From a virus, in the IMG/VR virus record IMGVR_UViG_3300028393_000270, positions 1-28,861 of that record: 28,861 bases of DNA. The stretch is one strand, 5' to 3'. The translations under genes and the position numbers were made by a program. Shown here piece by piece: positions 5,954 through 28,120 of this stretch (position 1 is its first letter; the number at the start of each line of letters is the position of its first letter). Below the pieces are notes generated by a model. The model made no database searches. It had not been told where the DNA came from and saw only the letters and a list, made by a program, of their open reading frames with translations.

Positions 5954-6393
5954 AATAGCTCTTCAGAGTAAACAGGGTAGTTATGTTTTAAATAATGATC
6001 GAGAGGCTCTATTACATAGCCTACAGGTGTTTTGTCTTGTTTTACAAAAATACCCCCAAGCCCTTTATATTCATCGGCGGTGTAGATTACGACCAGAGCT
6101 TTACCTGAACGGAACACTACAAAGTCAGTACGCCCGTTTTCTATCAAATTAACAGCGTCTGCATAGAGCTCTGTTTCCTCAAACTTCTTAAAGAAGAACA
6201 TACTTTTTACACCTATCGTATGCTTTGATATACCTATGGTAGCAATAAAGTCCGGTAGGTTTACTTCTATTACAGGGCTATTATCTCCTCCATTGTGTTT
6301 GATGTATTCTTCTACCTCAGCCTTCAGATCTGCTTTGCGTAGTTTGAAGTGTCGGCTTATAGCAGCACATGTGTCTACTTGTTCTATTGTCAT
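5950..6393 (-). CDS. Hypothetical protein, 147 residues
   Basis: Not recognised. Mixed alpha/beta, with an N-terminal helical region (TCAAISRHFKLRKADLKAEV) that could be a helix-turn-helix but shows no diagnostic pattern. It overlaps its neighbours by ATGA at both ends (RNA ligase upstream, 63-residue gene downstream), so the three are co-translated and it may assist the ligase. Confidence 0.7.
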   Translation of the reverse strand: MTIEQVDTCAAISRHFKLRKADLKAEVEEYIKHNGGDNSPVIEVNLPDFIATIGISKHTIGVKSMFFFKKFEETELYADAVNLIENGRTDFVVFRSGKALVVIYTADEYKGLGGIFVKQDKTPVGYVIEPLDHYLKHNYPVYSEELL

Positions 6394-7517
6394 AGGTGTA
6401 ACTCTACTAACTTTTTAAGTTGTTTATCTTGCAATGGTTGATTATTTAACATTGTGAATGCAAACTGAACCATCCCGGAAGAACCATAAGCTTCTTGAAT
6501 AACCTCAGCTGCATGCTTTCGACCATCCCTAGAGTCGCCATCCAATTGAGCTACGAACAGAGCTATATGCCGTAGCGTTTTCAAGCTTTGCATATAAGCA
6601 TCATGAGCCTGATACGCATATAGTTTTGCCTTGTCTGTACACTCAAAGTCAAAGGCAGTTTCCAGTGACTGGATAAACCTTTCAGCAGACGGATAGTCTT
6701 GATTTAGCCAAGACAGATACAAGTCCAACACATTATCAAGAGTACAGTTGCTTATGAACCTGTGGGCTGCCCGATACCAGCTGCACTTGATCTTCTTGAT
6801 ATCCTGATCGTTGTTATAGTATACGCAATAACCTTCAGCATTTCGCATATCTACCAGCGACACTTCCAGGGCACCCTGAGAAGCGAACTTGTGATGCTCA
6901 GCTACGCACACACCAAGATCCATGGCTATCTCAGGGAGATACACCTGTGGAGTATAAGAGTATGCCTCATGTTCTATGACACCAATCAATCTGATGTCAG
7001 GTTCAGCACCATAGTCTACAACAATAGGATTATTACGGGTAGTCCACTCGTATATGTATGAATGGCTGCCGTTTGATAGATAGGGATTATCAAATACCTT
7101 CGGATACTTATTCTTTAGATAAGCTATTTCATGAGCTGTAGCATCATGTTCACCTGCATCAAATGTACCTCTGGTGCGCACGATCAATTCACCGTTAGCG
7201 ATACCTCCAAATTTAGAGACAATTAGACAAGACCCATCAATCTTCTCAATAGGTATTGCTGTATGATCTTTGATTTGCTGATCAGTGAAGTCAGGAACAA
7301 TGTGATTGGCTTCTCCGTAATTGAAGAATTTCTTAAATCCTAGAGAAACTGGACGCCCATCCCAGGTCCATATGCTGCTTCTGTACTCTAGATTATCTTT
7401 GGTCCATTTAATTCCCATATGGGATGGGTATACAAGGTAGCACCTTTCATCAGCTATGATTCTTTCTCTAACGATGAATCCCTCACTCTTTAACCAATCA
7501 ATATTGAGGATTTGCAT
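6390..7517 (-). CDS. T4 Rnl1-type RNA ligase (copy A)
   Basis: 375 residues; T4 RNA ligase 1 has 374. Nucleotidyltransferase motifs in order: motif I EKIDGS (Lys92 is the expected AMP-bound lysine), RTRG at 114-117, motif IIIa YIYEWTT (Glu157), motif IV EGYCVYY (Glu228), motif V KIKCSWY (Lys242, Lys244). The C-terminal domain keeps the GRKHAAEVIQEAYGSSGM region, corresponding to the tRNA-recognition domain of T4 Rnl1. It joins 5'-phosphate and 3'-OH RNA ends using ATP; in T4 this repairs tRNA cut by a host anticodon nuclease. A second, clearly homologous ligase lies at 26966-28081. Start ATG at 7517, five bases after the upstream stop. Confidence 0.92.
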   Translation of the reverse strand: MQILNIDWLKSEGFIVRERIIADERCYLVYPSHMGIKWTKDNLEYRSSIWTWDGRPVSLGFKKFFNYGEANHIVPDFTDQQIKDHTAIPIEKIDGSCLIVSKFGGIANGELIVRTRGTFDAGEHDATAHEIAYLKNKYPKVFDNPYLSNGSHSYIYEWTTRNNPIVVDYGAEPDIRLIGVIEHEAYSYTPQVYLPEIAMDLGVCVAEHHKFASQGALEVSLVDMRNAEGYCVYYNNDQDIKKIKCSWYRAAHRFISNCTLDNVLDLYLSWLNQDYPSAERFIQSLETAFDFECTDKAKLYAYQAHDAYMQSLKTLRHIALFVAQLDGDSRDGRKHAAEVIQEAYGSSGMVQFAFTMLNNQPLQDKQLKKLVELHL

Positions 7518-7522
7518 AAGGT

Positions 7523-7804
7523 CTAATCTTTTTTACGCTGCGCTAATATAGCATCCATCCTAGTTAAAACTTCTGCCAGTTCGTCAACATCAGCAGAATT
7601 ATAAATACCGTCAAACAATAGATCTCCTGGAGATACTGAGTAACGATGTTCTGGATCTGACTTACCCTCGAAGTCGTACTCTTCTTTATCAAAACCAATT
7701 TCTTTAACTAGTTTTTTGTACAACCTATCAATTTCTTTTTGATGGTCGTTGATGATATAGTATGCGTCGGTGACTATCGCCCGCTGAATTTGTGTTAGCT
7801 TCAT
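7523..7804 (-). CDS. Small acidic hypothetical protein
   Basis: 93 residues, not recognised. N-terminal helix (YYIINDHQKEIDRLYKKLV) then an acidic region and a C-terminal helix. Its start sits in a TAATATG context, and the stop is five bases before the RNA ligase start, so the two are likely co-transcribed. Confidence 0.65.
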   Translation of the reverse strand: MKLTQIQRAIVTDAYYIINDHQKEIDRLYKKLVKEIGFDKEEYDFEGKSDPEHRYSVSPGDLLFDGIYNSADVDELAEVLTRMDAILAQRKKD

Positions 7805-7810
7805 ATTAAT

Positions 7811-8293
7811 TTAAAGAAATATGCCCATCTGCTCGTCTTCCAAGTATTCGATTCTCTTCGCAGCTTCATTCGCCAGTGACACTGCATTGTTGTCTCCAAT
7901 ACAAACACCATCAGATTCTGAACCATCAGGAAAGTAATTCTTCTGTTCAGTTTTGCAAAAAGGGTAACCTAACACTTTGCCTAAAATTTGTTCAATTTCA
8001 TGAAATTCTTCCAGCATCTTGTCTCTTTGAGAGACTGCTTTCTCTGCACCTAACTGTTCTGCAACACCTCTATAATATTCTAATTCTTCTTCTAAAATTT
8101 CTGCTTTGATCCTTTGTTTAGAGAGAAGCAATCTACCGTATTTGGTAATAGCCTCGCGCATATATTCGTCTATGTTTTCTAGGCATCCGTGAGCAACTAG
8201 ACCGCTCTCATAGAATGCCCACTCTTCTAAATCTCTTCGTTCAGCTAAAGCCTCGACACCTTCTGTTAGTTCATTCATTAGAGTGCGTTTCAT
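7811..8293 (-). CDS. Coiled-coil hypothetical protein, 160 residues
   Basis: Not recognised. Mostly helical; residues about 58-100 form a coiled coil (KQRIKAEILEEELEYYRG). The motif IKAE-x-LEEEL also occurs in the next gene upstream (8290-8562), at protein and DNA level, suggesting shared ancestry of that helix. It overlaps the upstream gene as ATGA. Confidence 0.65.
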   Translation of the reverse strand: MKRTLMNELTEGVEALAERRDLEEWAFYESGLVAHGCLENIDEYMREAITKYGRLLLSKQRIKAEILEEELEYYRGVAEQLGAEKAVSQRDKMLEEFHEIEQILGKVLGYPFCKTEQKNYFPDGSESDGVCIGDNNAVSLANEAAKRIEYLEDEQMGIFL

Positions 8294-8562
8294 AAGGTTA
8301 TTACGTCCATGTCTCCTTTTAATTGCATTAACTCTTCTTCTAAATTTTCTGCTTTGATCTGAGCTTTGTCTAGCTCTTTGGAGAGTAGATGTATTTGATT
8401 TACAAGATCATCATACTCAACTTTAAACTTATCTTCCATGATAGAAGCGACAATGTGCACATATTCGGGCAGCTCAAAGTAAGGACGGTAGCCCGACTCC
8501 TCATTAACTTCTTTAACTTTTTCTAGGACTTCCTCTTCTAGCTTGTCTCGGTCAAATTTCAT
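8290..8562 (-). CDS. Coiled-coil hypothetical protein, 90 residues
   Basis: Start placed at the ATG at 8562 (MKFDRDKLEEEV) rather than the upstream GTG at 8580. The same bases CATATTGATATGAAATT occur before the next gene (8780) with ATGAAATT as the start. Helical, ending with the IKAENLEEEL coiled-coil motif shared with the 7811-8293 gene. Function unknown. Confidence 0.6.
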   Translation of the reverse strand: MKFDRDKLEEEVLEKVKEVNEESGYRPYFELPEYVHIVASIMEDKFKVEYDDLVNQIHLLSKELDKAQIKAENLEEELMQLKGDMDVITL

Positions 8563-8576
8563 ATCAATATGAAGTT

Positions 8577-8780
8577 TCACTTGTTTTCCTTGTTAAACGA
8601 GTATCCATCAGGCATAACAATTTTATTGATTGTAAACTTATCATACATATCGTACACCTCATCAAGCGTAACATCAACACCTTCTCTAGCCATACAGGCA
8701 ACAGTTCCTTTACAAATCCAATCTCGTTTAATCGATGGATTTTGCAGCAATTCTTTTATGTTGTATCGCTTAAATTTCAT
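8577..8780 (-). CDS. Small hypothetical protein, 67 residues
   Basis: Start at the ATG at 8780 (MKFKRYNIKELL), which is one base past the stop of the upstream gene (8782-8784); the longer form begins with GTG inside that gene. Basic N-terminus, otherwise featureless. Function unknown. Confidence 0.6.
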   Translation of the reverse strand: MKFKRYNIKELLQNPSIKRDWICKGTVACMAREGVDVTLDEVYDMYDKFTINKIVMPDGYSFNKENK

Positions 8781-8781
8781 A

Positions 8782-8994
8782 TCAATATGCACTTAGTTGA
8801 TCTCCGACGTACCACACCATTGCGGTGAACTTGTTGTTATCGAATCTGCCGTTGTCTACTCCATCAGGAGTATAGTAGACATCAAGGCAGCTGTACTGTG
8901 AACAATTCTTTTCGATCTCTTCGATAATGCTGTGCGTGATATCTAGCAAAAGGCCTTTTTGTTCGTCTGTTAGTTGATAGTTTGATTTTCCCAT
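8782..8994 (-). CDS. SNY-family small protein, copy 1
   Basis: 70 residues. A local paralogous family with N-terminus MGKSNYQLTDEQK and C-terminus FDNNKFTAMVWYVGDQLSAY; the closest relative is at 12391-12585, and N-terminal relatives are at 11368-11847 and 10663-10689. The start is in a TAATATG junction, better than the upstream in-frame ATG at 9042, which would overlap the previous gene. Function unknown. The C-terminal block is the best conserved part between copies, so probably the functional core. Confidence 0.7.
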   Translation of the reverse strand: MGKSNYQLTDEQKGLLLDITHSIIEEIEKNCSQYSCLDVYYTPDGVDNGRFDNNKFTAMVWYVGDQLSAY

Positions 8995-8995
8995 A

Positions 8996-9259
8996 TTATT
9001 CTTGGTCTTCTTTACTATGATTAGTATAACCTCTGAGTTCATCTATTAGATCACCGATAACTGTATTCTTCCAGTCTTGGATTCCTTCTACCGCATCCAT
9101 TAGATCTTCAGCCATAACACGACCTTTGTTTACACTATAATGTAAAACCCAAGTTTCAAACTCATTACGAGTCCAATGTCCTGTTTTGACCCACTCATAC
9201 GCCTGTTTAGGTAGGGTGGTGAAGATGAGCTGTGGCGGAGTATCTTTATCTATATTCAT
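8996..9259 (-). CDS. Hypothetical protein, 87 residues
   Basis: Not recognised. Trp-rich middle (YEWVKTGHWTRNEFETWVLH) and acidic C-terminus. The start overlaps the 33-residue gene upstream as ATGA; the stop joins the next gene through TAATATG. Confidence 0.65.
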   Translation of the reverse strand: MNIDKDTPPQLIFTTLPKQAYEWVKTGHWTRNEFETWVLHYSVNKGRVMAEDLMDAVEGIQDWKNTVIGDLIDELRGYTNHSKEDQE

Positions 9260-9357
9260 TTGCTTTTTCTAGTGCAGTAGGTGATTTCAATTTGTTTTGC
9301 TTCCTTAACAAATGCTTCAGCAGCTTGAATGGCTTCTTTTAGTGTTTCTGGACTCAT
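9256..9357 (-). CDS. Small gene, 33 residues
   Basis: An ORF of 34 codons that fills the only gap here. It starts in a TAATATG junction after the 9359-9952 gene and ends as ATGA with the next gene. Predicted product: an amphipathic Ala/Glu/Lys helix (LKEAIQAAEAFVKEAKQIE) and a basic tail. The exact fit at both junctions supports expression; function unknown. Confidence 0.55.
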   Translation of the reverse strand: MSPETLKEAIQAAEAFVKEAKQIEITYCTRKSK

Positions 9358-9358
9358 A

Positions 9359-9952
9359 TTATTCTTCTTTCAAGTGAGGTGTTCCAAATTCAACTTCATC
9401 CATATTTGGTTTTTCTCTACCTTCTAATCTCCCCCGCATTCTATTCCATTCATCGACTCGCCGCATTTGAGCTTCTGAATCTATACGATACTGTTTAACC
9501 GCTTCGATATATTCGTAAGCGTTGTCAAAGAACACTATTTTGTTTTCGTACGGAGGTAGCCCTTTTTCCTTTTTAAACTTATTCAATCTTGCATACATCT
9601 CCTGCTCGTTCTGTGACATGAGGTCATCTGGAGTTAGCTCCCAACGAGACTGGAATATAATACCAGGGCAATGGTTGTTCACCTGTGCGAAGGCTATATC
9701 CCCGTCATCAGTCAGCGCATGGTATATACTATTACACAACGACTCAAAAACTTGAGCGTTGTCGTGGAAACCATCAAACACCTCAGACTCCAGTATCATT
9801 GCATACCTGTCCGTACTATCCACCAGGAACTTGCAAAGTATCGCAGCATCCTTGTCTTCAGGATATTTTTGAGCCTCGACATCAATCATGAACTTGAGCG
9901 AGTCCATGGCTTCTTTATGTTCAGCTTCTAGTAATTCAAAAAATTCGTGCAT
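9359..9952 (-). CDS. Hypothetical protein, 197 residues
   Basis: Not recognised. Mainly helical and acidic, soluble. The C-terminus contains RRVDEWNRMRGRLEGREKP and an acidic end. TAATATG junctions at both start and stop place it in the middle of the accessory operon. Confidence 0.7.
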   Translation of the reverse strand: MHEFFELLEAEHKEAMDSLKFMIDVEAQKYPEDKDAAILCKFLVDSTDRYAMILESEVFDGFHDNAQVFESLCNSIYHALTDDGDIAFAQVNNHCPGIIFQSRWELTPDDLMSQNEQEMYARLNKFKKEKGLPPYENKIVFFDNAYEYIEAVKQYRIDSEAQMRRVDEWNRMRGRLEGREKPNMDEVEFGTPHLKEE

Positions 9953-9953
9953 A

Positions 9954-10052
9954 TTATTTATGTCTCTTTCGTTTTAAGATGAAACCGCCTATAGCTCTAA
10001 TAAACTTCCTATAGGATAATACTTCAGTCTTAACTTTACATTTTTCAGTCAT
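9954..10052 (-). CDS. Small basic protein, 32 residues
   Basis: An ORF of 33 codons between 9952 and 10052. Very basic (Lys/Arg-rich, ending LKRKRHK) with a short hydrophobic stretch AIGGFI. It has a good ribosome site (AAGGA, five bases before the ATG) and its TAA forms the TAATATG junction of the next gene. Confidence 0.5.
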   Translation of the reverse strand: MTEKCKVKTEVLSYRKFIRAIGGFILKRKRHK

Positions 10053-10061
10053 ATTATCCTT

Positions 10062-10082
10062 CTAGATGTGTGTATTGTCCAT
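10062..10082 (-). other. Micro-ORF MDNTHI
   Basis: Six codons plus TAG. It starts in a TAATATG junction one base after the stop of the 10084-10302 gene, and ends nine bases before the next start. Too short for a protein of its own; it may pass ribosomes from one gene to the next, or be a gene remnant. Confidence 0.3.
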
Positions 10083-10083
10083 A

Positions 10084-10302
10084 TTATTTGATTTCTGCTA
10101 TAATTTCTGTCTCAACAATAATGTTTGTACAAATCAAACGAAATGTAGAATTGGGTTCGTCATTTTTCCAATTTTTAAGATCTTCTATAGCTGTACGCCA
10201 ATCTGTTCCTATTGGAAAATTAGATACAGTAAACCAAGTGTTTTTTACTTTTGCTTGAACGGCTAAACGAGAAACTTCTTCAATGTCTTCTATATTTTCC
10301 AT
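10084..10302 (-). CDS. MENIED-family small protein, copy 1
   Basis: 72 residues beginning MENIEDIEEVSR. A near copy is at 11851-12072; by hand alignment 64 of 71 residues are identical. Composition suggests a small alpha/beta fold (NTWFTVSNFPIGTDWRTAIE). The TTG at 10314 would add four residues, but the ATG at 10302 is the one in the TAATATG junction. Function unknown. Retention of two nearly identical copies 1.7 kb apart suggests a dosage benefit or a recent duplication. Confidence 0.7.
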   Translation of the reverse strand: MENIEDIEEVSRLAVQAKVKNTWFTVSNFPIGTDWRTAIEDLKNWKNDEPNSTFRLICTNIIVETEIIAEIK

Positions 10303-10303
10303 A

Positions 10304-10666
10304 TTATTTTTCAAAAATGTTTCCTACTACGTTAAAAAACTGATCATATTCAATTAGATCTTGAAATGTTTCAAATGCTTTATCTATTACAACTCCAAAA
10401 GAACCAAACTCTTTAAAATATTGAACTTCACCAACAAATTGCATACCATCATCTCTATAAGCAAACTCTAACAAGTCACCTTCATAAATTTCTTTACCAT
10501 TCTTATCTAGAAGTCCTGTGAATTGTTGAAAGATAGCTTCTTTATAAGCGCCAAGGTGCCAATTCCTCAAGTACATATAGAGTTCACCTTCTTCAGGACA
10601 CTCCATTCCATCGTTTTCACTATTACCCCAATGCTTAACGTAAACTCTATATTTTGGTATTCTCAT
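10304..10666 (-). CDS. YopX family protein
   Basis: 120 residues with the YopX signature: FTGLLDKNGKEIYEGDLLEF in the middle, a beta-rich region, and the terminal VVGNIFEK (usual form: IGNIYE). YopX proteins are small phage proteins of unknown function, frequent in Gram-positive prophages and other tailed phages. The N-terminus is longer and richer in Trp/Tyr than in the minimal family. Its start overlaps the stop of an eight-codon micro-ORF (10663-10689) as ATGA. Confidence 0.85.
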   Translation of the reverse strand: MRIPKYRVYVKHWGNSENDGMECPEEGELYMYLRNWHLGAYKEAIFQQFTGLLDKNGKEIYEGDLLEFAYRDDGMQFVGEVQYFKEFGSFGVVIDKAFETFQDLIEYDQFFNVVGNIFEK

Positions 10667-10689
10667 AGTTTGTAGTTTGAGTGTCCCAT
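10663..10689 (-). pseudogene. Micro-ORF MGHSNYKL, truncated SNY-family start
   Basis: Eight codons plus TGA. They are identical in protein to the first eight residues of the SNY-family gene at 12391-12585 and keep its TAATATG junction. The stop overlaps the YopX ATG. It looks like a gene that lost all but its start, retained perhaps because it couples YopX translation to the gene upstream. Confidence 0.6.
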
Positions 10690-10690
10690 A

Positions 10691-10918
10691 TTATAAGAGG
10701 TCATCACCATATTCCATTGTTTTAGTCTTTGGTACGATATCCCAATGCTGAGAATTCGCTGCATAGTTCCTACCTTCTATGTAAGCTTTCTCCACTAAGG
10801 ATACTAGTGAGTTAATGTGTACTTCATAGAAGTCTAGCTTATCCCCAAATCGCTGCTCGGTTGTTGAAACATATGGGACTTGCTCTTGAATAAGTTTTAA
10901 TATATCTGCTTTATTCAT
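10691..10918 (-). CDS. Hypothetical protein, 75 residues
   Basis: Not recognised. Helical, with YIEGRNYAANSQHWDIVPK in the second half. TAATATG at both ends, linking it to the micro-ORF MVTKEV upstream and to the SNY micro-ORF downstream. Confidence 0.65.
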   Translation of the reverse strand: MNKADILKLIQEQVPYVSTTEQRFGDKLDFYEVHINSLVSLVEKAYIEGRNYAANSQHWDIVPKTKTMEYGDDLL

Positions 10919-10919
10919 A

Positions 10920-10940
10920 TTATACTTCTTTTGTTACCAT
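10920..10940 (-). other. Micro-ORF MVTKEV
   Basis: Six codons plus TAA, with TAATATG at both its start and its stop. It sits exactly between the 57-residue gene upstream and the 75-residue gene downstream, so a ribosome could pass along all three. Confidence 0.35.
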
Positions 10941-10941
10941 A

Positions 10942-11115
10942 TTATTGTATATTAAGAGATTCAAAAACACTCTCTTGATAAATGTCAAAGTATACCTTCA
11001 ACACTTGTTGAACATCATATTCACTCAAACTAGTAGATTTGGAGATCTTGCTAATAATATTCTTAATGTCAGAATCTAGTTCTGGTTGTTTGTATGGGTT
11101 GTTTTTGTCTTTCAT
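10942..11115 (-). CDS. Small helical protein, 57 residues
   Basis: A 58-codon ORF filling 10942-11115. It starts as ATGA over the upstream stop and ends in a TAATATG junction. The helix pair ISKISKSTSLSEYDVQQVLK and VYFDIYQESV resembles the N-terminal helices of HU/IHF-type proteins (LS-x-x-DV-x-x-VL), but the DNA-binding arm is absent. I therefore call it only a small helical protein. Confidence 0.6.
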   Translation of the reverse strand: MKDKNNPYKQPELDSDIKNIISKISKSTSLSEYDVQQVLKVYFDIYQESVFESLNIQ

Positions 11116-11366
11116 TTTGATTTACTTCTACTATTTTCGAGTTGCTCTATCAAATCTGATGTCTCTTGAGCTTCTTTGTAGAAGTCAAAGGATTTATCCT
11201 CAGTCATAACTTTTTCATCTTCTCCGTACTCAAATACAGCAATATGAGTACTTCCCCACTCCGTGCGTAGCGCAAGATAAGCATTTTTCCCTTCATACTT
11301 TTTAGCCAATCCTGCAAGATTAACTTTCATGGAATAATCTATATTTACGGTTCCTATTTTTTTCAT
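11112..11366 (-). CDS. Hypothetical protein, 84 residues
   Basis: Not recognised. Beta-rich first half (VNIDYSMKVNLAGLAKKYEG, then YLALRTEWGSTHIAVFEYG) and a helical C-terminus. Joined to both neighbours (TAATATG at the start, ATGA at the stop). Confidence 0.65.
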   Translation of the reverse strand: MKKIGTVNIDYSMKVNLAGLAKKYEGKNAYLALRTEWGSTHIAVFEYGEDEKVMTEDKSFDFYKEAQETSDLIEQLENSRSKSK

Positions 11367-11367
11367 A

Positions 11368-11847
11368 TTATCCTAAAGCACAAACATTCCAATTGTTTAC
11401 TTTGAATGAGCTATCCCCATGAAACACCACTTGGTGACTTGGGTCTAGCTTATTTTCAATATCTAGATGCCACAGCTCGTTGTTATGCCATCCTATAGTC
11501 GTCCAAACGTCATCTACGCAATGGCGTCTAATAAACCTTTTAGTGTCTTTCCTGATAAGACTAATGGCGTCCTCTAGAAACTGCTCATAGTACAAGACTA
11601 CCATGACGGGTTTGGGTGGTTCAGCTTCCCAACTGTTGTTATCGGTGAGATAGGCTAGCAGAGCACTGATAGGCCATCCCTTGTCTGCGTACTCTCCATT
11701 TTTCCAGACTTTACAGCGCACTTTCCAACCTTTGTCTAGCTTTTCTAATATTTCATTTTTGTTTATATCTTGCATACTATTTTCATCTAACGATAATATG
11801 ACTTCGCTTTTTTGTTCTTGTGTTAGTTCGTAGTTTGATTTGTTCAT
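11368..11847 (-). CDS. SNY-type N-terminus on a larger unknown protein
   Basis: 159 residues. The first 13 (MNKSNYELTQEQK) match the SNY family, but the rest differs: a Trp-rich segment (GWKVRCKVWKNGEYADKGWP) and a mixed domain with several His/Trp. This suggests a gene whose start region was exchanged by recombination between small genes. Function unknown. It follows the MENIED copy 2 gene directly (TAA TAA ATG). Confidence 0.65.
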   Translation of the reverse strand: MNKSNYELTQEQKSEVILSLDENSMQDINKNEILEKLDKGWKVRCKVWKNGEYADKGWPISALLAYLTDNNSWEAEPPKPVMVVLYYEQFLEDAISLIRKDTKRFIRRHCVDDVWTTIGWHNNELWHLDIENKLDPSHQVVFHGDSSFKVNNWNVCALG

Positions 11848-11850
11848 TTA

Positions 11851-12072
11851 TTAAAGTTCTGCTATAATTTCTGTCTCAACAACAATGTTTGTACAAATCA
11901 AACGAAATGTAGAATTGGGTTCTTCGTTTTTCCAATTTTTAAGATCCTCTATAGCTGCACGCCAATCCGTTCCTATTGGAAAATTATGTACAGTAAACCA
12001 AGTGTTTTTTACTTTTGCTTGAATGACTAAACGAGAAACTTCTTCAATGTCTTCTATATTTTCCATATTCAT
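11851..12072 (-). CDS. MENIED-family small protein, copy 2
   Basis: 73 residues, nearly identical to the protein at 10084-10302 after the extra start MN. The DNA is also closely similar along the gene, including the stretch coding WFTV and FPIGTDWR, so the duplication is recent. The start ATG at 12072 lies in TAATATG; the ATG two codons later matches the start of copy 1. Confidence 0.7.
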   Translation of the reverse strand: MNMENIEDIEEVSRLVIQAKVKNTWFTVHNFPIGTDWRAAIEDLKNWKNEEPNSTFRLICTNIVVETEIIAEL

Positions 12073-12080
12073 ATTAATAC

Positions 12081-12389
12081 TTATTTCTGTTTATAAAAAT
12101 TGTCTAATTCTTCTTCAGTTGCAAATGAAAGAGGCTCATCTGTTTCGATGATATCAAATTCATCTAAGGAACACAGATCCCCATCAATTAGTTCGTAACC
12201 CTCTATATCCAATCTACGTCCCACGAACAATCCAGAACCCCACCCTTCGTGTTCTTTTTTGTAAGCTTCAAATTCTTCAACAGTAAACCTATGAAAAGAA
12301 TTCTGGTTGGGGTAGTTAGTGTCTATAAAAGCTTCCGTACCCTCTTTATACAATTGATATGGTTTGGCAATAAATTTAACGTATTTCAT
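12081..12389 (-). CDS. Hypothetical acidic protein, 102 residues
   Basis: Not recognised. Starts MKYVKFIAKPYQLYKEGTEA, then a mixed region and an acidic C-terminus. Its ATG is one base after the TGA of SNY copy 2, in the same ATTGATATGAAA sequence that follows SNY copy 1, so the SNY 3' end and the following gene start were duplicated together or kept under the same constraint. Confidence 0.65.
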   Translation of the reverse strand: MKYVKFIAKPYQLYKEGTEAFIDTNYPNQNSFHRFTVEEFEAYKKEHEGWGSGLFVGRRLDIEGYELIDGDLCSLDEFDIIETDEPLSFATEEELDNFYKQK

Positions 12390-12390
12390 A

Positions 12391-12585
12391 TCAATATGAT
12401 GCTAACTTATCACTAATATACCACACCATAGCAGTAAACTTGTTATTGTCAAATTCACGACCATCATATGGATCTAATATTTCATGATGAGCGCATTTAT
12501 CTTCTATATCACTTTCAAGTACTTTTGAAATTCTATCAAGCAATACCTTTTGTTCGTCTGTTAGTTTGTAGTTTGAGTGTCCCAT
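12391..12585 (-). CDS. SNY-family small protein, copy 2
   Basis: 64 residues, MGHSNYKLTDEQK at the start and FDNNKFTAMVWYISDKLASY at the end, matching copy 1 (8782-8994) at both ends with a variable middle. Start in TAATATG, three bases after a TAG. Confidence 0.7.
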   Translation of the reverse strand: MGHSNYKLTDEQKVLLDRISKVLESDIEDKCAHHEILDPYDGREFDNNKFTAMVWYISDKLASY

Positions 12586-12589
12586 ATTA

Positions 12590-12805
12590 CTATTCTTTGA
12601 TCCATTCTACAGGTACATCAACCCAACTAACTTCCTGTTTGGTAATGACATAATTACCAAAAGTGCTAATTGTTACTTGTTGTTGGAGAATTGGTTCATC
12701 GTACAATGGTTTACGACACCACCGAATCTGTCCTGTATAGGAAGTTTGAGTGTATACATTATCTTCCACCTTAAGTCTTACGTGAAACGTGCTTTCAGAT
12801 TCCAT
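12590..12805 (-). CDS. Hypothetical protein, 71 residues
   Basis: Not recognised. Beta-rich, with regular alternation and several Trp/Tyr (WCRKPLYDEP, VSWVDVPVEWIKE). Start in a TAATATG junction. Confidence 0.6.
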   Translation of the reverse strand: MESESTFHVRLKVEDNVYTQTSYTGQIRWCRKPLYDEPILQQQVTISTFGNYVITKQEVSWVDVPVEWIKE

Positions 12806-12806
12806 A

Positions 12807-13031
12807 TTATCCTCTCAAGTATCCTGCATTTTTGAGTCTTTCATACTCTTTTGTTTGGCGAAAGCAATACTCTTCTCGTTCAACTGTATTAGCATATTCA
12901 CAAGACAAAGATTCTTTTGGTTCTTTGTGTTTTTCAGCATACTCTATTTTAGCAGCTTCTTCGTTCTTGGCAAGAACTACATCATAGTAATGTTTTGAGA
13001 AAACTTTGAAGAAGTGAAGCTGATTACTCAT
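12807..13031 (-). CDS. Hypothetical basic protein, 74 residues
   Basis: Start at the ATG at 13031 (MSNQLHFFKV), which overlaps the upstream stop by eight bases; the GAAG in the preceding codons may serve as ribosome site. FFKVFSKHYYDVVLAKNEEA is a short beta-beta-helix pattern seen in many tiny phage proteins. No family assigned. Confidence 0.6.
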   Translation of the reverse strand: MSNQLHFFKVFSKHYYDVVLAKNEEAAKIEYAEKHKEPKESLSCEYANTVEREEYCFRQTKEYERLKNAGYLRG

Positions 13032-13233
13032 TTTCTTCAATCCATCCTACTCGTTTAAAATTTCGTTTAAATTCTTCAATGGAACAATGTGATGTGTCGT
13101 CATGAAGATGATGACAGTTTACAATTGTGTACCAAACTCGATTTTTATCGTACTTTGTCAAACCTCTAGCAAAGATCAACAAATTATCTTTTTCCGAATA
13201 AAATAAACTACCAAAATTAATATCGTTATTCAT
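13024..13233 (-). CDS. Hypothetical protein, 69 residues
   Basis: Not recognised. Contains NCHHLHDD, a His-rich stretch that could bind metal, in an otherwise ordinary mixed sequence. A short gap of about 50 bases precedes it with no clear promoter. Confidence 0.6.
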   Translation of the reverse strand: MNNDINFGSLFYSEKDNLLIFARGLTKYDKNRVWYTIVNCHHLHDDTSHCSIEEFKRNFKRVGWIEENE

Positions 13234-13284
13234 GATTATACTGTAGATTGGATAAAATTAAGTTATACGTTAAATCGGATATTA

Positions 13285-13485
13285 TTATGTTTCCTCACGA
13301 TCTCCAATATATTTCGCACTCAATTCAATCTCATTTCTTGCTAGAGTGTCAAGCAAACCTAGTGCTAGATCTTTGATAGCCTTTTCTCCAGCACCACCAG
13401 CTTGTTCTATTGCTTCTTTCAAAGCAAGATAATTATTATGATATAGCAGATCTCTTTTTGATTCAAAAATGTAACTCATGATCAT
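13285..13485 (-). CDS. Small helical protein, 66 residues
   Basis: Not recognised. Ala/Leu-rich helices (YLALKEAIEQAGGAGEKAIK). The start could be 13485 or the ATG two codons later (MSYIF); both follow the stop of the small membrane gene upstream. Confidence 0.6.
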   Translation of the reverse strand: MIMSYIFESKRDLLYHNNYLALKEAIEQAGGAGEKAIKDLALGLLDTLARNEIELSAKYIGDREET

Positions 13486-13489
13486 GATA

Positions 13490-13612
13490 TTATTTTACGC
13501 ACTGACAAGGAGGGCCTGCTACATACTTAATGGATTTTGCTTGTAGGTAAAATCCTAAACATATAAACGCAATGACGAAAGGGATGAAAAGGATTTTTAA
13601 TAGGTTAGTCAT
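13490..13612 (-). CDS. Small membrane protein, 40 residues
   Basis: A 41-codon ORF that overlaps the upstream gene by eight bases and ends just before the 13285-13485 gene. One membrane helix near the N-terminus (LLKILFIPFVIAFICLGFYL) and a Cys-rich end (PPCQC). The hydrophobic helix and the clean junctions support a real gene, of the kind of tiny membrane peptides phages use early in infection. Confidence 0.6.
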   Translation of the reverse strand: MTNLLKILFIPFVIAFICLGFYLQAKSIKYVAGPPCQCVK

Positions 13613-13886
13613 GTTTTAGTGTATGTGCTTTCAATTCTTCTTCAGTTGTTAATTCTTCTTCGGTTGTTAATTCTTTAACATAATTAAAGAAACTTAAAGA
13701 GAACTTATGCTCTGGAAATTCCTCTAGGATCACAGCGCACCAACTAGATGCTAATTCTAATTTGGTGATTGTGTATTCTTTGCCAACCTCTAGAAGCTCA
13801 TTAGCATCTTTGACGATGTTAACAAACCAGAACATGTGTGTACCTTTGAAGGTTACTTTACTACCGATTTTGGGCCATTGTTTCAT
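13605..13886 (-). CDS. Hypothetical protein with internal repeat, 93 residues
   Basis: Begins MKQWPKIGSKVTFKG, a beta-strand start that recurs in the fragment at 15017-15076. The C-terminus has two copies of ELTTEEELTTEEEL encoded by near-identical 21-base repeats. Probably a small beta-barrel-like domain plus acidic helix. Function unknown. Confidence 0.65.
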   Translation of the reverse strand: MKQWPKIGSKVTFKGTHMFWFVNIVKDANELLEVGKEYTITKLELASSWCAVILEEFPEHKFSLSFFNYVKELTTEEELTTEEELKAHTLKHD

Positions 13887-13888
13887 AA

Positions 13889-13933
13889 TTATTTTAAATG
13901 CTGTGCTGCTGCTGTATTAATAATTGTATTCAT
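13889..13933 (-). other. Micro-ORF of 14 codons
   Basis: MNTIINTAAAQHLK, starting in the TAATATG junction after the large 13935-14993 gene and ending two bases before the next ATG. It fills the gap exactly. Peptide or translational relay; not decidable here. Confidence 0.35.
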
Positions 13934-13934
13934 A

Positions 13935-14993
13935 TTATTGCTTGTCCAAGAACTCACCCCTCCAGAGATATCTGGTCACTCTGGGAAGTGCTGCTCTTTC
14001 TTCTTCAGTAATTGTAAATGAATCACCTCCAATGATCTGTTCTATTGTCATCATCAGATACATGAACATATCTTTTTCTTGTGCTAGTTTTGTGATTGAT
14101 TCTTTAAGCTCTTCCAGAGAATCAAATCTCATGGTTGTTGCTGCAATAGCTTTACCTCGTTGTGCAGTCAAAGGCCCGACCATGAATCCCTTGGCAAGAG
14201 AAATAATTTCTTCATCAAAAATTAAATCTTGATCAATTTTCTCAGCATGTTCCCTAATACGTTCTTCCCATTCTTCTCTGGTATAATTGATATCAGGAAT
14301 CGTAGCCTCATGATGAATTATAGGAGCAAACCTATCCGTCTTCTTTTCGAATTTTGTGGTGATTGTGCCGTCCCTATTCATGGTCAGAATCTTGTCGTAT
14401 TCTGGATGTAGATTGTCTTCTAATGCTTTCTTGAGCATCTCTCTGAATTCAGCAACGATCTCTTCATCTGTTCTTACATCAGACTTTTGAGGTTCTAAAA
14501 CTTCAAATGTTGGAATCGTTTCAGCATAAAGAGATACTTTACGCTTAATGTGACCGATTGCTCCCATCCAAAAATCAGGTTCATTCGATGCAAACTTTAG
14601 TACTTCATCGTCCAGCAATTCAACCAATTCTCGAATTGATTTGGTAATTTGGTATTCTTTATCTGAAATGTTCTGGAGCTTCAACTCCATTGCTAAGTAC
14701 TCATTAAGTTCTTCTAGAGTTTCGCAATCGGTTCCTTTAAATGAAAATGTTTCATTCCAACTAATTCTATTTTTGTAGAATTTATTAAACACATCACGAT
14801 CTACGATCTTGGCTACAAATGTTGTAGTGATATCATCGGGACCAACAGGACCATTGATTGTAAATAGAATTTGTAAACCTACATGTGTTTCATCACGGAG
14901 TTTCTTTTCGTGTCTAAAATAATGATCAAGACTTTTAAAGAATTCTGCTTTATCTTTAACTAAAATATTTGGTTTATTACTTTTGTTTTTCAT
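13935..14993 (-). CDS. Hypothetical protein, 352 residues
   Basis: The largest gene of the accessory zone; not recognised. Charged, mostly helical, no membrane segment. N-terminal third contains alternating segments ending THVGLQILFTINGPVGPDD; C-terminal third has AQRGKAIAATTMRF and ends TRYLWRGEFLDKQ. Preceded by the truncated 15017-15076 fragment with about 23 bases between. Function unknown. Confidence 0.75.
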   Translation of the reverse strand: MKNKSNKPNILVKDKAEFFKSLDHYFRHEKKLRDETHVGLQILFTINGPVGPDDITTTFVAKIVDRDVFNKFYKNRISWNETFSFKGTDCETLEELNEYLAMELKLQNISDKEYQITKSIRELVELLDDEVLKFASNEPDFWMGAIGHIKRKVSLYAETIPTFEVLEPQKSDVRTDEEIVAEFREMLKKALEDNLHPEYDKILTMNRDGTITTKFEKKTDRFAPIIHHEATIPDINYTREEWEERIREHAEKIDQDLIFDEEIISLAKGFMVGPLTAQRGKAIAATTMRFDSLEELKESITKLAQEKDMFMYLMMTIEQIIGGDSFTITEEERAALPRVTRYLWRGEFLDKQ

Positions 14994-15016
14994 TATAAAT
15001 TTTGTTTACTTTTTTT

Positions 15017-15076
15017 CTATAACCTGATCTGTTGTGCTTTGAACTTCACTTTACCGATTTTGGGCCATTGTTTCAT
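15017..15076 (-). pseudogene. Truncated copy of the 13605-13886 gene start
   Basis: A 19-codon frame MKQWPKIGKVKFKAQQIRL with TAG. Its first 25 bases are identical to the first 25 of the 13605-13886 gene; after a three-base gap the next codons are still related (KVKFK against KVTFK), then it diverges and stops. A gene remnant, or a translated leader for the 352-residue gene. Confidence 0.65.
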
Positions 15077-15077
15077 A

Positions 15078-15284
15078 TCAATCAAATCTGTTGGTGATCT
15101 CTCTGGGTTGCATGTACTTTGCTAGAATTACGAAATTATCCAAATCATATTCTTTAGCAAAATCAATTGCTTCTTTTTCTGATTTGAATGTTCTCCAAAC
15201 GGCTACAGGCTCTCCGTTTTTATATGAAGGAGTTTTTAGTTTGCCTTTTTCTGTTACTTTGCGAATGAAATATTCTTTGTTCAT
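15078..15284 (-). CDS. Hypothetical protein, 68 residues
   Basis: Start at ATG 15284 (MNKEYFIRKV) after the upstream TAG; a longer form from 15308 would overlap that gene. FKSEKEAIDFAKEYDLDN is a common alpha/beta motif of small phage proteins. Function unknown. Confidence 0.6.
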   Translation of the reverse strand: MNKEYFIRKVTEKGKLKTPSYKNGEPVAVWRTFKSEKEAIDFAKEYDLDNFVILAKYMQPREITNRFD

Positions 15285-15292
15285 AATATTTT

Positions 15293-15544
15293 CTAAAATG
15301 TTCTCCACTGTTCTAATTTTTTATCAACAACGCAATTGTTATCATTAAGAAATTTTTCTACTTTAGATGCTCTATATAACCATTGCTGTATTGAATTCTG
15401 AATGCCAAACAAGTCTTTGTCATTCTTTAAAAGACCTTGCATATACATATGTTCAAGATATTTCATACTTCGAATAACCTCATGCATGAAATGAAGTTCG
15501 GCCTTTTTTGCTTCGATGAGCTTATCTATTTTTTTAGTTTCCAT
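15293..15544 (-). CDS. Helical hypothetical protein, 83 residues
   Basis: Not recognised. Predicted all-helical, N-terminal METKKIDKLIEAKKAEL. Its start lies within the last 11 bases of the 15534-15713 gene. Confidence 0.65.
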   Translation of the reverse strand: METKKIDKLIEAKKAELHFMHEVIRSMKYLEHMYMQGLLKNDKDLFGIQNSIQQWLYRASKVEKFLNDNNCVVDKKLEQWRTF

Positions 15545-15713
15545 AGATTATTTCAAATGTATAACCATCTAATTCTTTATATATTGGATATAAAGCTTTT
15601 ACTTCACGATCAACTGCTTCTCTATCTTTACGATCAAACTCATAAGAACCACAAAGCCTTTTACCGCTTTTGGTTCTTGAATCTTTTTTGTAAATGTTAA
15701 TAATAAAAATCAT
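15534..15713 (-). CDS. Hypothetical protein, 59 residues
   Basis: A 60-codon ORF joined to both neighbours by overlap (ATGA at its start, 11 bases at its stop). Mixed charged protein: beta start MIFIINIYKK, then a helix DREAVDREVKALYPIYKEL and a final beta strand. Function unknown. Confidence 0.65.
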   Translation of the reverse strand: MIFIINIYKKDSRTKSGKRLCGSYEFDRKDREAVDREVKALYPIYKELDGYTFEIIYGN

Positions 15714-15838
15714 TTAGATAATTGCTTGCTATGAATCTTAACAGATTCTACGCTATTGTCAATCATTTTAAAAATTCCACTAAAGCCTACTGTGCTGATG
15801 ATGACTCCGACGATTACTCCGACGAAAAATGTTTTCAT
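15710..15838 (-). CDS. Small membrane protein, 42 residues
   Basis: A 43-codon ORF with one N-terminal membrane helix (FFVGVIVGVIISTVGFSGIF) and a polar tail. ATG two bases after the upstream TAA; stop overlaps the next ATG. Consistent with a tiny phage membrane protein; function unknown. Confidence 0.6.
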   Translation of the reverse strand: MKTFFVGVIVGVIISTVGFSGIFKMIDNSVESVKIHSKQLSK

Positions 15839-15840
15839 AA

Positions 15841-16053
15841 TTATATTTCTACAGTGCGATGTTCGGGTGTTCTCAAAAGTTGTGTGTATGTGTGCGTTAT
15901 TTTAGTGACTGACCATTTAAGTTTCGGACGTTCTTTTTTACAAATTTCCAACTTATCAAATGCTTCTTGTTCGCTTCGAGCTATTGAAGCAGCCCATAAC
16001 GCATCACCCAAAAGATATTCAATTAAATATTCTTCGTAATTTCGATTGTTCAT
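15841..16053 (-). CDS. Hypothetical protein, 70 residues
   Basis: Start at ATG 16053 (MNNRNYEEYL) in a TAATATG context; the longer form from 16095 overlaps the small membrane gene upstream. Contains an Ala/Glu helix (GDALWAASIARSEQEAFDKL). Function unknown. Confidence 0.6.
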   Translation of the reverse strand: MNNRNYEEYLIEYLLGDALWAASIARSEQEAFDKLEICKKERPKLKWSVTKITHTYTQLLRTPEHRTVEI

Positions 16054-16057
16054 ATTA

Positions 16058-16195
16058 CTACCATTCATTCTTGATAACTTGCTTGTGAAATGCACTCATT
16101 GCCTTGCAGCATGATGCGGGTATAGCTAACGTAGCACATACAAAAATCCAAAGCAAGCAAAATTTTAACAATTTTTCTTTCAATTCTTCGTTCAT
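16058..16195 (-). CDS. Small membrane or secreted protein, 45 residues
   Basis: A 46-codon ORF between the methyltransferase stop (TAG, two bases before its ATG) and the 15841-16053 gene. A hydrophobic helix (LLKFCLLWIFVCATLAIPAS) with a Cys pair at its end could be an anchor or a signal peptide. Third such tiny membrane gene in 3 kb. Confidence 0.55.
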   Translation of the reverse strand: MNEELKEKLLKFCLLWIFVCATLAIPASCCKAMSAFHKQVIKNEW

Positions 16196-16197
16196 AA

Positions 16198-16980
16198 CTA
16201 TTTTTTCAAAACCATCGTATAGGGTGTTAATGAATTGGCAATTTTCATTTTAGTTGTTGCTATGATTTCATATCCGATCTCTTCTACAATAATTTTCATC
16301 TCCCATTTAGAAACAGTATAAACCACTTGTCCGTAATGATAGGTTCGGGGAGCATCTATTACATACATCAAATTGAAATATCCACCATACGGTAATATTT
16401 CATATACTTGCTTCAAATATTTTATAATCTGTAATCGAGACAAATGCTGAAAAGTATTAGATGAATAGAAAAGGTTAATCTTTTCTTTATATAAATTTAC
16501 TTGGTATTGTGAAAACGTCCCATCATGACCTCCGACTTCCAAAGCTGATGAAGTACGAGCGATAATATCAAATCCTCTATAGTCTACGTCTTGGTGTTTA
16601 TTCCACTCGAAGAAGTTTTCGAAGAAAGAACCATACCCGCATCCAATTTCCGCTATCGATGCATACTTCATTATTGATTTCAATTCAGATATTAACCATT
16701 CAGTCTGAGCTACCATACCCATATTCAATGGGATTTTATAATTAGCTTTATTGGATTCCTGAATAGATAAAGTGGTATCTTTTAGGTTATTGTGATTGCA
16801 TACTGGATCTGTGGCAAAGTGTTCTTCTGCTGCTGTCCAGAATTCTCTGGGATCGACTCTATCGGGATCTAGCGCATTTAGAACCAGATGAGGTTCTGGG
16901 GACTTTAGATGATTATGATAATCCCATAAAGTATTCCATCCCGTATCTTTCCACAGTTGGATAATAGTCTTTTTGTTCAT
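16198..16980 (-). CDS. Class I SAM-dependent methyltransferase
   Basis: 260 residues. The SAM-binding motif I is at about 109-117 (IAEIGCGYG), followed by an acidic residue at the end of the next strand (RGFDII) and the late motif with NTFQHLS and the LPYGGYFNLMYV strand, the usual Rossmann methyltransferase order. An N-terminal extension of about 85 residues precedes the fold. The general shape recalls methyltransferases acting on sugars or small molecules rather than DNA, but the substrate cannot be read. Its start overlaps the sigma-factor stop as ATGA, so the two are translated together. Confidence 0.85.
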   Translation of the reverse strand: MNKKTIIQLWKDTGWNTLWDYHNHLKSPEPHLVLNALDPDRVDPREFWTAAEEHFATDPVCNHNNLKDTTLSIQESNKANYKIPLNMGMVAQTEWLISELKSIMKYASIAEIGCGYGSFFENFFEWNKHQDVDYRGFDIIARTSSALEVGGHDGTFSQYQVNLYKEKINLFYSSNTFQHLSRLQIIKYLKQVYEILPYGGYFNLMYVIDAPRTYHYGQVVYTVSKWEMKIIVEEIGYEIIATTKMKIANSLTPYTMVLKK

Positions 16981-17943: not shown

Positions 17944-18018
17944 TGGTTGCAGGAAGAGGAATCGAACCTCTGACCTCCAGCTTATGAGACTGGTGAGCTA
18001 CCACTGCTCCATCCCGCG
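17944..18018 (-). tRNA. tRNA-Met (CAT), initiator-like
   Basis: A full cloverleaf of 75 bases including an encoded 3' CCA. Acceptor CGCGGGA / TCCTGCA leaves position 1-72 as C-A, the mismatch that marks bacterial initiator tRNA. D stem GAGC/GCTC (A11-T24, also an initiator trait), anticodon loop CTCATAA, variable loop AGGTC, T arm AGAGG-TTCGATT-CCTCT. The anticodon stem CCAGT/GCTGG lacks the three consecutive G-C pairs normally required for P-site entry, so it is an incomplete initiator. A CAT anticodon can also be tRNA-Ile2, but the 1-72 mismatch argues against that. Confidence 0.9.
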
Positions 18019-19281: not shown

Positions 19282-20541
19282 TTATGCTATCAAATCTTTT
19301 ACTGGTTGTCCATTATAGACAATTGCCACCGGTCTCCCCCCAGATGCTTGTAGTTTTGCATCTGGATCGATACCTAATTGTGTATACAATGTAGCTGCAA
19401 GATTTTCAATAGTCAATGGATCAGTTTCAACATCGCTACCAGTGGCATCAGATGAACCGTATACATGACCTCGTTTGAATCCACCACCAGCGAACACAAC
19501 GGAGAATACACGGGGCCAATGATCTCGTCCAGCATCTTTGTTGATCTTTGGGGTACGACCGAATTCTGAGCTTATCATTACTATGGTGGAATCCAATAAT
19601 CCACGTTGTTCTAGATCATTAATTAATGTAGCATATGCCTGATCGAACTGTGGAAGTTGTTTGCTCATCCCATTAGCAATGCCAGTATGCATGTCCCAGC
19701 CTCCGTATGTAACAGAAACGAACCTTACACCCGCCTCTACCAGTCTTCGAGCCATAAGCAGCCGTTGACCCGCTTGATTCAATCCATAGGCTTCTTTCAT
19801 TACTTGGGGTTCTTTGTCCAAGGCAAATGCTTCTTTAGCTTTCGGTGATGAAATCAAATCATATGCCTTCTGATAGAAACTATCCATTGCTGCCAAGCTA
19901 TCGCTATTCTCTTGATACTTGAAATGGCTATCAACAGTTTCTAATATACTTCTACGTTTATCAAATCGTTCTTGACTAACGGTGGAATTTAAATCTCTTA
20001 CCTTGAATCCTGCCGCTGCTGGATCAGATCCAAGACTGAAGGGGCCAAACGCTTTTGATAGGTAACCAGCATCAGCAACATCTCCTAGCTTTTGAGGAAC
20101 GCATACATATGCTGGAAGATTTTCACGATCTCCTAATTGATTAGATACCACTGAACCAAATGATGGATACTCTAATGCAGGGGAAGGACGGTAACCAGTG
20201 AACATAGTAGATGTACCACGTTCATGTGCAGCATCACCATGCGTCATGGAATGTACTACGGTTAATTTATTAGCGATCTTAGCAGTCTTCTGTAGATACT
20301 CAGAGAACTGTAATCCATCTACTGAGGTAGGAATAGCCTTTAAAGGCCCCCGATACTCAGATGGTGCCATTGGATGTGGATCAAATGTCTCATGAGCTGA
20401 AGACCCACCCGGCAAATAAATATGAATTACCGATTTAGCCTTCGGTGTTAGATTGGATTCTGCTTGTAATTTGAGGATATCTCCCATTGATAATCCCAAT
20501 CCCCCAACAAGTCCACTATAAAGGAAGTCTCTTCGGTTCAT
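19282..20541 (-). CDS. DUF1501 protein with Tat signal (alkaline-phosphatase/sulfatase fold)
   Basis: 419 residues, normal length for DUF1501. It begins MNRRDFLYSGLVGGLGLSMG, a twin-arginine (RR) signal. Family blocks in order: IYLPGGSSAHETFDPHP at about 41-57, HGDAAHERGTSTMFTGYRP at 101-119, TYGGWDMH at 278-285, ISSEFGRTPKINKDAGRDHW at 323-342, AGGGFKRGHVYGSSD at 351-365. DUF1501 belongs to the alkaline-phosphatase-like clan and is abundant in Planctomycetota and Verrucomicrobiota, rarely elsewhere. The product should be exported. The gene is richer in G+C than its neighbours (32 of 60 bases at 19681-19740 against 17 of 60 at 18601-18660) and has its own consensus promoter, both signs of recent acquisition. 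Confidence 0.93.
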   Translation of the reverse strand: MNRRDFLYSGLVGGLGLSMGDILKLQAESNLTPKAKSVIHIYLPGGSSAHETFDPHPMAPSEYRGPLKAIPTSVDGLQFSEYLQKTAKIANKLTVVHSMTHGDAAHERGTSTMFTGYRPSPALEYPSFGSVVSNQLGDRENLPAYVCVPQKLGDVADAGYLSKAFGPFSLGSDPAAAGFKVRDLNSTVSQERFDKRRSILETVDSHFKYQENSDSLAAMDSFYQKAYDLISSPKAKEAFALDKEPQVMKEAYGLNQAGQRLLMARRLVEAGVRFVSVTYGGWDMHTGIANGMSKQLPQFDQAYATLINDLEQRGLLDSTIVMISSEFGRTPKINKDAGRDHWPRVFSVVFAGGGFKRGHVYGSSDATGSDVETDPLTIENLAATLYTQLGIDPDAKLQASGGRPVAIVYNGQPVKDLIA

Positions 20542-26965: not shown

Positions 26966-28081
26966 TTATTTAAGCGTCTCCCAAAGTTTGTGAGGAGGAA
27001 TCTTTTTGTTATCTAGTAAATCAAAAGCAATGCCAGAGTCATTAGGGAACTGCTGAAGAATCTTTTGAGCTTTTTCTTTACGGTCTAAAGCTATAAAATC
27101 TGAATTATTTAAATATACATTTATTTGCATTAACTTATACGTAATCAATCTAATCTTATTATATAGCTCATCCATTAAAGGAGTCAAAGCAGTCACCAGC
27201 TCCCAATCAAAATTAGTAGCTAATAGAGCTTCGAAATTTTCTCTATGGGTACATCCATATTCTACATACAGATCAAACAGATGATCAACAGTCTTCACTC
27301 CAGTAAAGACTCGATGCATATACAGATAACGAGGGGTCTTGACCTTCTTAAGAGTCTGACCGTTGTTACTATAGATAACCACCCCTTCGATAGTATCTTT
27401 ATCTTTTAGATACTCGGATACATTTAAAAGATTTAGTTCATATCTTTCCGGACGAGGTACTTCCATAAAGATAGCCTGTTGATCTAATTGAAATTGCGTA
27501 AAGTATTTGTAAGAAAAATGAGTGGCACCCATAAACATCATAAAAGCATCATCTGATGCTTTTATGTGAGACACAATTCCAATTAACCATAAAGTTGGTT
27601 CTTCACTTTCTTGGAGAACAATTCTATTCGTTGGTGTAGTCCACTCGAATAGTAAACTATAATTTTCAGACTGAAGCCACAAATTATCGAATGCTTTAGG
27701 ATACTTCTCTTTTAGAACAGCTATCTCATGCCCGTTAGATAGCTGTGTAGCATCTGTAGTACCTCTAGTTCTTACGATGAGTTCTCCTTTGTAAGAACTT
27801 ACTATCAAACAACTTCCATCCATTTTTCTGACGAACTCTAAATCTGTATGATCATCATTAGGTTCGAATAGTGGCTTCTCCCCCAGATTGGTAAATTTTT
27901 TAAATCCCAAACTGATGGGACGCATGTCTGATTTACGCCAGATAGAAGAACGAAATATCTTATTATCGTCGTTCCATTCTACTTCCATGCCCTTTGGAGT
28001 TACAAGGATACATTCATCTCCTGCGATAATGCAGTCTTTAATATTAAATTGAGAGGGATCTGGTAAATTCGGATAGTTCAT
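26966..28081 (-). CDS. T4 Rnl1-type RNA ligase (copy B)
   Basis: 371 residues from the ATG at 28081 (MNYPNLPDPS); a TTG at 28117 would add 12. The chosen start aligns with the start of copy A. Motif I RKMDGS (Lys86), RTRG at 104-107, motif IIIa LLFEWTTPTNRIV (Glu146), motif IV IEGVVIY (Glu232), motif V KKVKTPRY (Lys246, Lys248). Clearly homologous to copy A (6390-7517), including SLGFKKF and the HEIA-x-LK-x-KYPK region, but well diverged. It seals RNA ends with ATP. Two ligases in one phage suggest different substrates. Confidence 0.92.
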   Translation of the reverse strand: MNYPNLPDPSQFNIKDCIIAGDECILVTPKGMEVEWNDDNKIFRSSIWRKSDMRPISLGFKKFTNLGEKPLFEPNDDHTDLEFVRKMDGSCLIVSSYKGELIVRTRGTTDATQLSNGHEIAVLKEKYPKAFDNLWLQSENYSLLFEWTTPTNRIVLQESEEPTLWLIGIVSHIKASDDAFMMFMGATHFSYKYFTQFQLDQQAIFMEVPRPERYELNLLNVSEYLKDKDTIEGVVIYSNNGQTLKKVKTPRYLYMHRVFTGVKTVDHLFDLYVEYGCTHRENFEALLATNFDWELVTALTPLMDELYNKIRLITYKLMQINVYLNNSDFIALDRKEKAQKILQQFPNDSGIAFDLLDNKKIPPHKLWETLK

Positions 28082-28120
28082 ACGGCAAAGTATACTATCA
28101 GACTTACCATAAATCAAGAA

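Follow-up and report, generated by a model that had tools for sequence, protein, structure and literature searches.

Micro-ORFs as probable by-products of gene turnover in a small-gene array of a freshwater phage

The mobile regulatory cassettes of T4-type phages are said to be promoter/stem-loop elements and, together with hyperplastic regions, are reportedly the subject of Arbiol et al. 2010 (Genome Biol Evol 2:140; cited in PMC4177764 and PMC4503421). Cyanophage S-PM2 is known to undergo spontaneous deletion of an ORFanage region (PMC4503421). Neighbouring genes can be translationally coupled by termination-reinitiation (PMC6728339, PMC10666635), and a minigene of two codons has been found to increase txe expression in cis (PMC8708949). 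Here we analyse the virus contig IMGVR_UViG_3300028393_000270, a freshwater phage fragment whose whole length of 28,861 nucleotides (nt) is called the window below, and five very short open reading frames (micro-ORFs) that lie in the gaps of its dense array of small genes. We conclude that these micro-ORFs probably arose as by-products when genes turned over within a polycistronic, hypervariable array of small genes.

The array resembles the hyperplastic regions of T4-type phages in that small, mostly uncharacterised genes are shuffled between relatives, and, as with the mobile cassettes, short conserved promoter-like blocks precede different genes here too; unlike the cassettes, the repeats of the window lie at coding starts. 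As in S-PM2, small uncharacterised phage genes appear to be lost from one locus, but there by a single large deletion and in the window by putative single-gene-scale deletions that leave stubs. The junction geometry of -4 and +1 nt is shared with termination-reinitiation coupling, although full genes are coupled in those systems and the putative upstream partner here is an 8-codon stub. The axe-txe minigene, too, is an ORF of very few codons that precedes a gene, with a cis effect shown in that system; it differs in having two codons and an experimentally shown action, possibly via mRNA stability, whereas the stubs described here are known from sequence alone.

Comparison of window positions 9000-16500 with cultured phages gave no match at all, so no annotated relative was usable. 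Scans of IMG/VR yielded 15 related contigs (G001-G015, 22-227 kilobases [kb]), which are metagenomic and possibly fragments; they were inspected in 20-kb pieces, and coordinates with L-numbers refer to these pieces. Annotation with a purpose-built small gene caller gave about 2,240 genes, with some genes missed. Array gene families are shared, in differing order and combination, across G001, G002, G005-G008, G014 and G015. One contig, G011, is near-identical to the window (99.96% over the shared 11 kb, with 4 differences in 11,110 nt), and no further contig carries these stubs. Besides a YopX-family gene, the genes of the array (about 7.5 to 17 kb) are mostly uncharacterised. The original prediction had placed micro-ORFs, among them MDNTHI, MVTKEV and a 14-codon ORF, in the gaps of this array, and all five are indeed present there on the minus strand. 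They are listed with the array and the genes that bear directly on their origin (aa, amino acids).

7523-16980, minus strand: dense small-gene array, with gene order shuffled among relatives.
10062-10082, minus strand: micro-ORF MDNTHI, probable 5' stub of a MDNTHVNIRIKYW-type array gene (suggestive only).
10304-10666, minus strand: YopX-family gene (PF09643), the next gene after the SNY stub.
10663-10689, minus strand: micro-ORF MGHSNYKL, well-supported 5' stub of an SNY-family gene.
10920-10940, minus strand: micro-ORF MVTKEV, with TAATATG on both sides and no convincing gene-start match in relatives.
12391-12585, minus strand: SNY gene of 64 aa, full-length and of the type parental to MGHSNYKL.
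13605-13886, minus strand: WPK gene of 93 aa, full-length and of the type parental to MKQWPKIG.
13889-13933, minus strand: 14-codon micro-ORF MNTIINTAAAQHLK, at a position where G007-G009 have a 69-aa gene.
15017-15076, minus strand: micro-ORF MKQWPKIGKVKFKAQQIRL (MKQWPKIG...), 5' stub of a WPK-family gene by homology to 13605-13886.

The reading of MGHSNYKL as a decayed SNY gene is well supported by sequence homology and by position. As had been predicted, the micro-ORF copies the start of the full-length SNY gene at 12391-12585, with which it shares an exact match of 28 nt; TAATATGGGACACTCAAACTACAA has just two occurrences, at 10670-10693 and 12566-12589, and there are four SNY-type starts in the window (8994, 10689, 11847 and 12585). 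The expectation that relatives would carry full-length genes at the places of the stubs was borne out for this one. Contig G002, of 198 kb, has a full-length SNY gene (MGHSNYKLSDEQKK..., MGHSNYKLSDEQKKEL...) directly upstream of the YopX gene, to which it is joined by a TAATATG junction; in G014 an SNY gene lies one gene further upstream, in the order SNY, one gene, YopX. The MGHSNYKL stub with its stop is identical to the G002 SNY start at 30 of 31 nt. Joining TATCAGA, at SNY codons 8-10 of a G002-like parent, to TATGAGA, at the YopX start, would remove about 178 nt and give the window junction AAACTATGAGA. The SNY-YopX arrangement is observed in G002, and from it we infer the deletion of about 178 nt. 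A search for the SNY family in bacterial and archaeal genomes found none.

MKQWPKIG... likewise copies the start of the WPK gene at 13605-13886, as proposed, with an exact match of 26 nt (15052-15077 with 13862-13887) and 44 aligned nt at 86% identity, followed by divergence. By our estimate the chance expectation of 26-nt exact repeats in 29 kb is about 1e-6, and we judge that the SNY- and WPK-start repeats are not due to chance. The homology gives good grounds for regarding MKQWPKIG as a 5' remnant. In G001, the counterpart of the stub's upstream neighbour directly precedes a different gene.

MDNTHI matches at 21 of 25 nt a G005 gene of 48 codons (L060:1825-1971, MDNTHVNIRIKYW...), which lies in the array and has a TAATATG start. 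By nucleotide count this match does not exceed the best one that MVTKEV gives at random, but it is stronger in frame and context, and it suggests that MDNTHI is probably the 5' stub of a G005-like array gene. A G001 gene with an exact 17-nt match to MDNTHI was dropped as a parent, since it lies outside the array and is probably a coincidence; the G005 array gene is the better candidate. MVTKEV and MNTIINTAAAQHLK had no parent among the approximately 52,600 ATGs of the contigs compared, and the ATG that MVTKEV matched best (21/25 nt) is one outside the array, an unconvincing match. At the site of the 14-codon ORF, G007-G009 have the 69-aa gene between relatives of both neighbours of the ORF; therefore a gene was lost or replaced there too. 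Both MVTKEV and the ORF of 14 codons may represent older stubs or have arisen by chance. The view that the micro-ORFs are genes reduced to a start and a stop thus stands by homology for MGHSNYKL and MKQWPKIG and is probable for MDNTHI, while the other two are without a parent.

The claim that most of them keep the TAATATG junction was true of their starts, where it is found in four of the five (TGATATG at MKQWPKIG), and failed for their ends, where it is present only at MVTKEV. The 14-codon ORF ends with TAATTATG, the TGA stop of MGHSNYKL overlaps the start of the YopX gene as ATGA, and the stops of MDNTHI and MKQWPKIG fall 9 nt and 23 nt short of the next start.

We propose that short-homology deletions and swaps of 5' modules at gene junctions would add, fuse and remove array genes. 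A deletion running from inside one gene to the ATG of the next would leave the start and a few codons of the first gene as a stub, and the putative deletion between the TATCAGA of SNY and the TATGAGA of YopX would have produced MGHSNYKL in this way. A census of remnants in the gaps of the relatives and the window gave a clean set of three 3' remnants (G002, G006 and G007) and three 5' remnants (two in the window and one, without its ATG, in G001). Automatic flags were checked by eye, and reversed sequence used as a control gave a match in 3 of 497 gaps. A 5' bias among remnants was rejected on this clean set (3 vs 3); an earlier raw count ('5start') had been inflated by genes that the caller missed.

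Starts are also exchanged between array genes. The remaining genes that bear on this and on the surroundings of the stubs are as follows.

8782-8994, minus strand: second full-length SNY paralogue, 70 aa.
10691-10918, minus strand: 75-aa array gene between MVTKEV and MGHSNYKL.
11368-11847, minus strand: chimeric gene, 159 aa, with an MNK + SNYELTQEQK start and a body unlike SNY bodies.
13935-14993, minus strand: 352-aa gene between the two WPK starts, its last ~100 aa common to G007-G009.
15078-15284, minus strand: 68-aa gene upstream of the WPK stub; its G001 counterpart directly precedes another gene.

The chimeric gene begins MNKSNYELTQEQK, and its body differs from those of the other SNY genes. 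G007 has the same preceding MENIEDI gene, TAA spacer and MNK start, with MNKIEIL... following there. The reverse arrangement, an SNY body with a different start (MEPTIKLTDEQK), is found in G001 at L045:9696. Among non-homologous bodies, shared starts exceeded shared ends by 5 to 0 pairs at 22/27 nt, and by 31 to 21 pairs at the looser 20/27 nt. In SNY starts, codons are identical in 84% of the positions where the residue is the same, compared with 58% for the starts of other genes and about 45-52% for gene bodies; this could reflect recent start exchange or a constraint on the start sequence, which these figures do not separate.

Near-duplicate array genes of the MENIEDI... type occur in the window at 10084-10302 and 11851-12072 (240 nt at 91%). 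The copy at 11851 is closer to a G007 gene (97.8%) than to its duplicate in its own contig, and therefore recent import rather than local duplication is suggested. A tblastn search of viral contigs with the 352-aa gene, aimed at finding relatives of the MKQWPKIG stub, gave none; the only relative of this gene is the partial, C-terminal one in G007-G009. For the MNKADIL gene, which has a micro-ORF on either side, nothing but the near-identical contig turned up.

Several observations weigh against decay as the full explanation. The YopX protein of G002 is only 47% identical to that of the window, and because of this the SNY-YopX order could reflect coincidental reshuffling. The contig with the nearest YopX gene, G008 (85%), has at that place the micro-ORF MSIQVYAE and not SNY. 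A full WPK gene at the position of 15076 is absent from all of G001-G015, so that the predicted full-length gene failed to appear for MKQWPKIG. Two micro-ORFs are without a parent. Finally, decay does not fully explain the tight tiling of the window, a tightly tiled micro-ORF being one with both ends close to the neighbouring genes: among the window's 13 gaps of 12-90 nt, 3 were observed against 0.16 expected, a local excess that is a post hoc statistic for a window chosen after the fact. The G008 micro-ORF lies at L029:5506-5536 and precedes the YopX gene, as MGHSNYKL does in the window.

Could the stubs have arrived as stubs? Through template switching, short copies of the starts of SNY and WPK might have come to lie between genes at places where no full gene ever stood, and the mobility of 5' modules, the existence of start-swapped chimeras, the preponderance of shared starts over shared ends, the synonymous conservation of SNY starts and the lack of a full WPK gene at 15076 in any relative all fit such insertions. 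The full-length SNY gene at the place of MGHSNYKL in G002 does not, and a simple deletion involving short, imperfect repeats is enough to explain the MGHSNYKL junction; we regard insertion as unlikely. It is about as likely as not that MVTKEV and the 14-codon ORF, and perhaps MDNTHI too, are reading frames without meaning within AT-rich gaps, a possibility compatible with decay of the other two. Across the group of contigs, de-duplicated, tiled micro-ORFs occur at the rate expected by chance, and the best MVTKEV match lies outside the array, both in keeping with chance ORFs, whereas the excess of tight tiling within the window alone and the in-frame match of MDNTH(I/V) to the start of a gene of the same array speak for something more than chance.

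The original prediction went further and suggested that the stubs were kept because they pass ribosomes on to the next gene. In a phage without a Shine-Dalgarno signal, they would carry ribosomes from a stop to the next start by termination-reinitiation. Shine-Dalgarno sequences were indeed not enriched (5-16% of starts by junction class vs 10% of all ATGs), and the commonest junctions were +1 nt (TAATATG) and -4 nt. The frames of MGHSNYKL, MVTKEV and the 14-codon ORF fill their gaps to within a few nt, above chance in the window; both ends lie within about 10 nt, a placement suited to reinitiation, and MDNTHI is marginal in this respect. In Escherichia coli and Haloferax volcanii, coupling is nearly gone beyond about 20 nt and the last 15 nt of the upstream gene are enough (PMC10666635), and the minigene acting in cis on txe (PMC8708949) offers a parallel. 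The stop of MKQWPKIG, 23 nt before the next start, is too far away for efficient reinitiation, and that of MDNTHI lies 9 nt before the next ATG. A group-wide excess of tiled micro-ORFs was rejected, as 4 were observed against 4.9 expected under a Markov null (3.6 under a rotation null), 3 of these 4 being in the window and only 1 outside. At a looser tolerance the group had 14 against 8.3 under the rotation null (P 0.025) and 10.2 under the Markov null (P 0.145), which hints at a weak effect at most. In addition, 3' remnants equal 5' ones in number, a 5' remnant persists that has lost its start, and a deletion ending at the next ATG yields an ATGA overlap in about one third of cases by frame alone. 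A relay role of the stubs is unproven and disfavoured, and we hold it to be quite improbable; a general rule, by which stub-leaving deletions preferentially survive in phages that lack Shine-Dalgarno signals and have reinitiation-dependent operons, so that dead genes serve as ribosome relays of a few codons, seems to us no more likely. Ordinary gene turnover is the reading we retain.

Two types of promoter-like block were seen upstream of genes. Block CGTATAACTTAATTTTATCCAATCTAcaGTATAAT is found in the window (13234-13284), at L023:3862-3971 and at L029:5067-5112; the gene that it precedes is shared by the window and G007 but is another one in G008, and the block may be a mobile regulatory cassette. 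The second, TTGAC (or TCGAC)..CCACAGGAAAC..TAATAT, occurs at L023:1321 (G007), L029:5138 (G008) and L096:17203 (G006), before a different gene in each, and overlaps the 3' end of the YopX gene in G008. A 225-nt gap in G007 (L023:1287-1511) contains GC-rich complementary stretches and matched no Rfam family.

Elsewhere in the contig, two T4 Rnl1-type RNA ligase-like proteins are encoded within 29 kb (6390-7517 and 26966-28117), and a transfer RNA (tRNA) gene lies at 17947-18018 on the minus strand; G008 has a cluster of at least six tRNA genes near L029:17823-20000. The 419-aa protein at 19282-20541 had no match in PHROGs, the only database searched for it. We take it to resemble a DUF1501/TAT-type protein of planctomycete-like bacteria, which would be unusual in a phage and a possible clue to the host.

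To us the window is a clear, if ordinary, case of turnover among the genes of a hypervariable phage array. Its interest lies in that gene loss from such an array is caught at the resolution of a single gene, with a before-like state in G002 and the after-state in the window, and gene junctions and starts are suggested as the sites where array genes break, fuse and swap. A relay function, if true, would explain ORFs in phage gene gaps that are too short to encode a protein; the present evidence favours ordinary decay.

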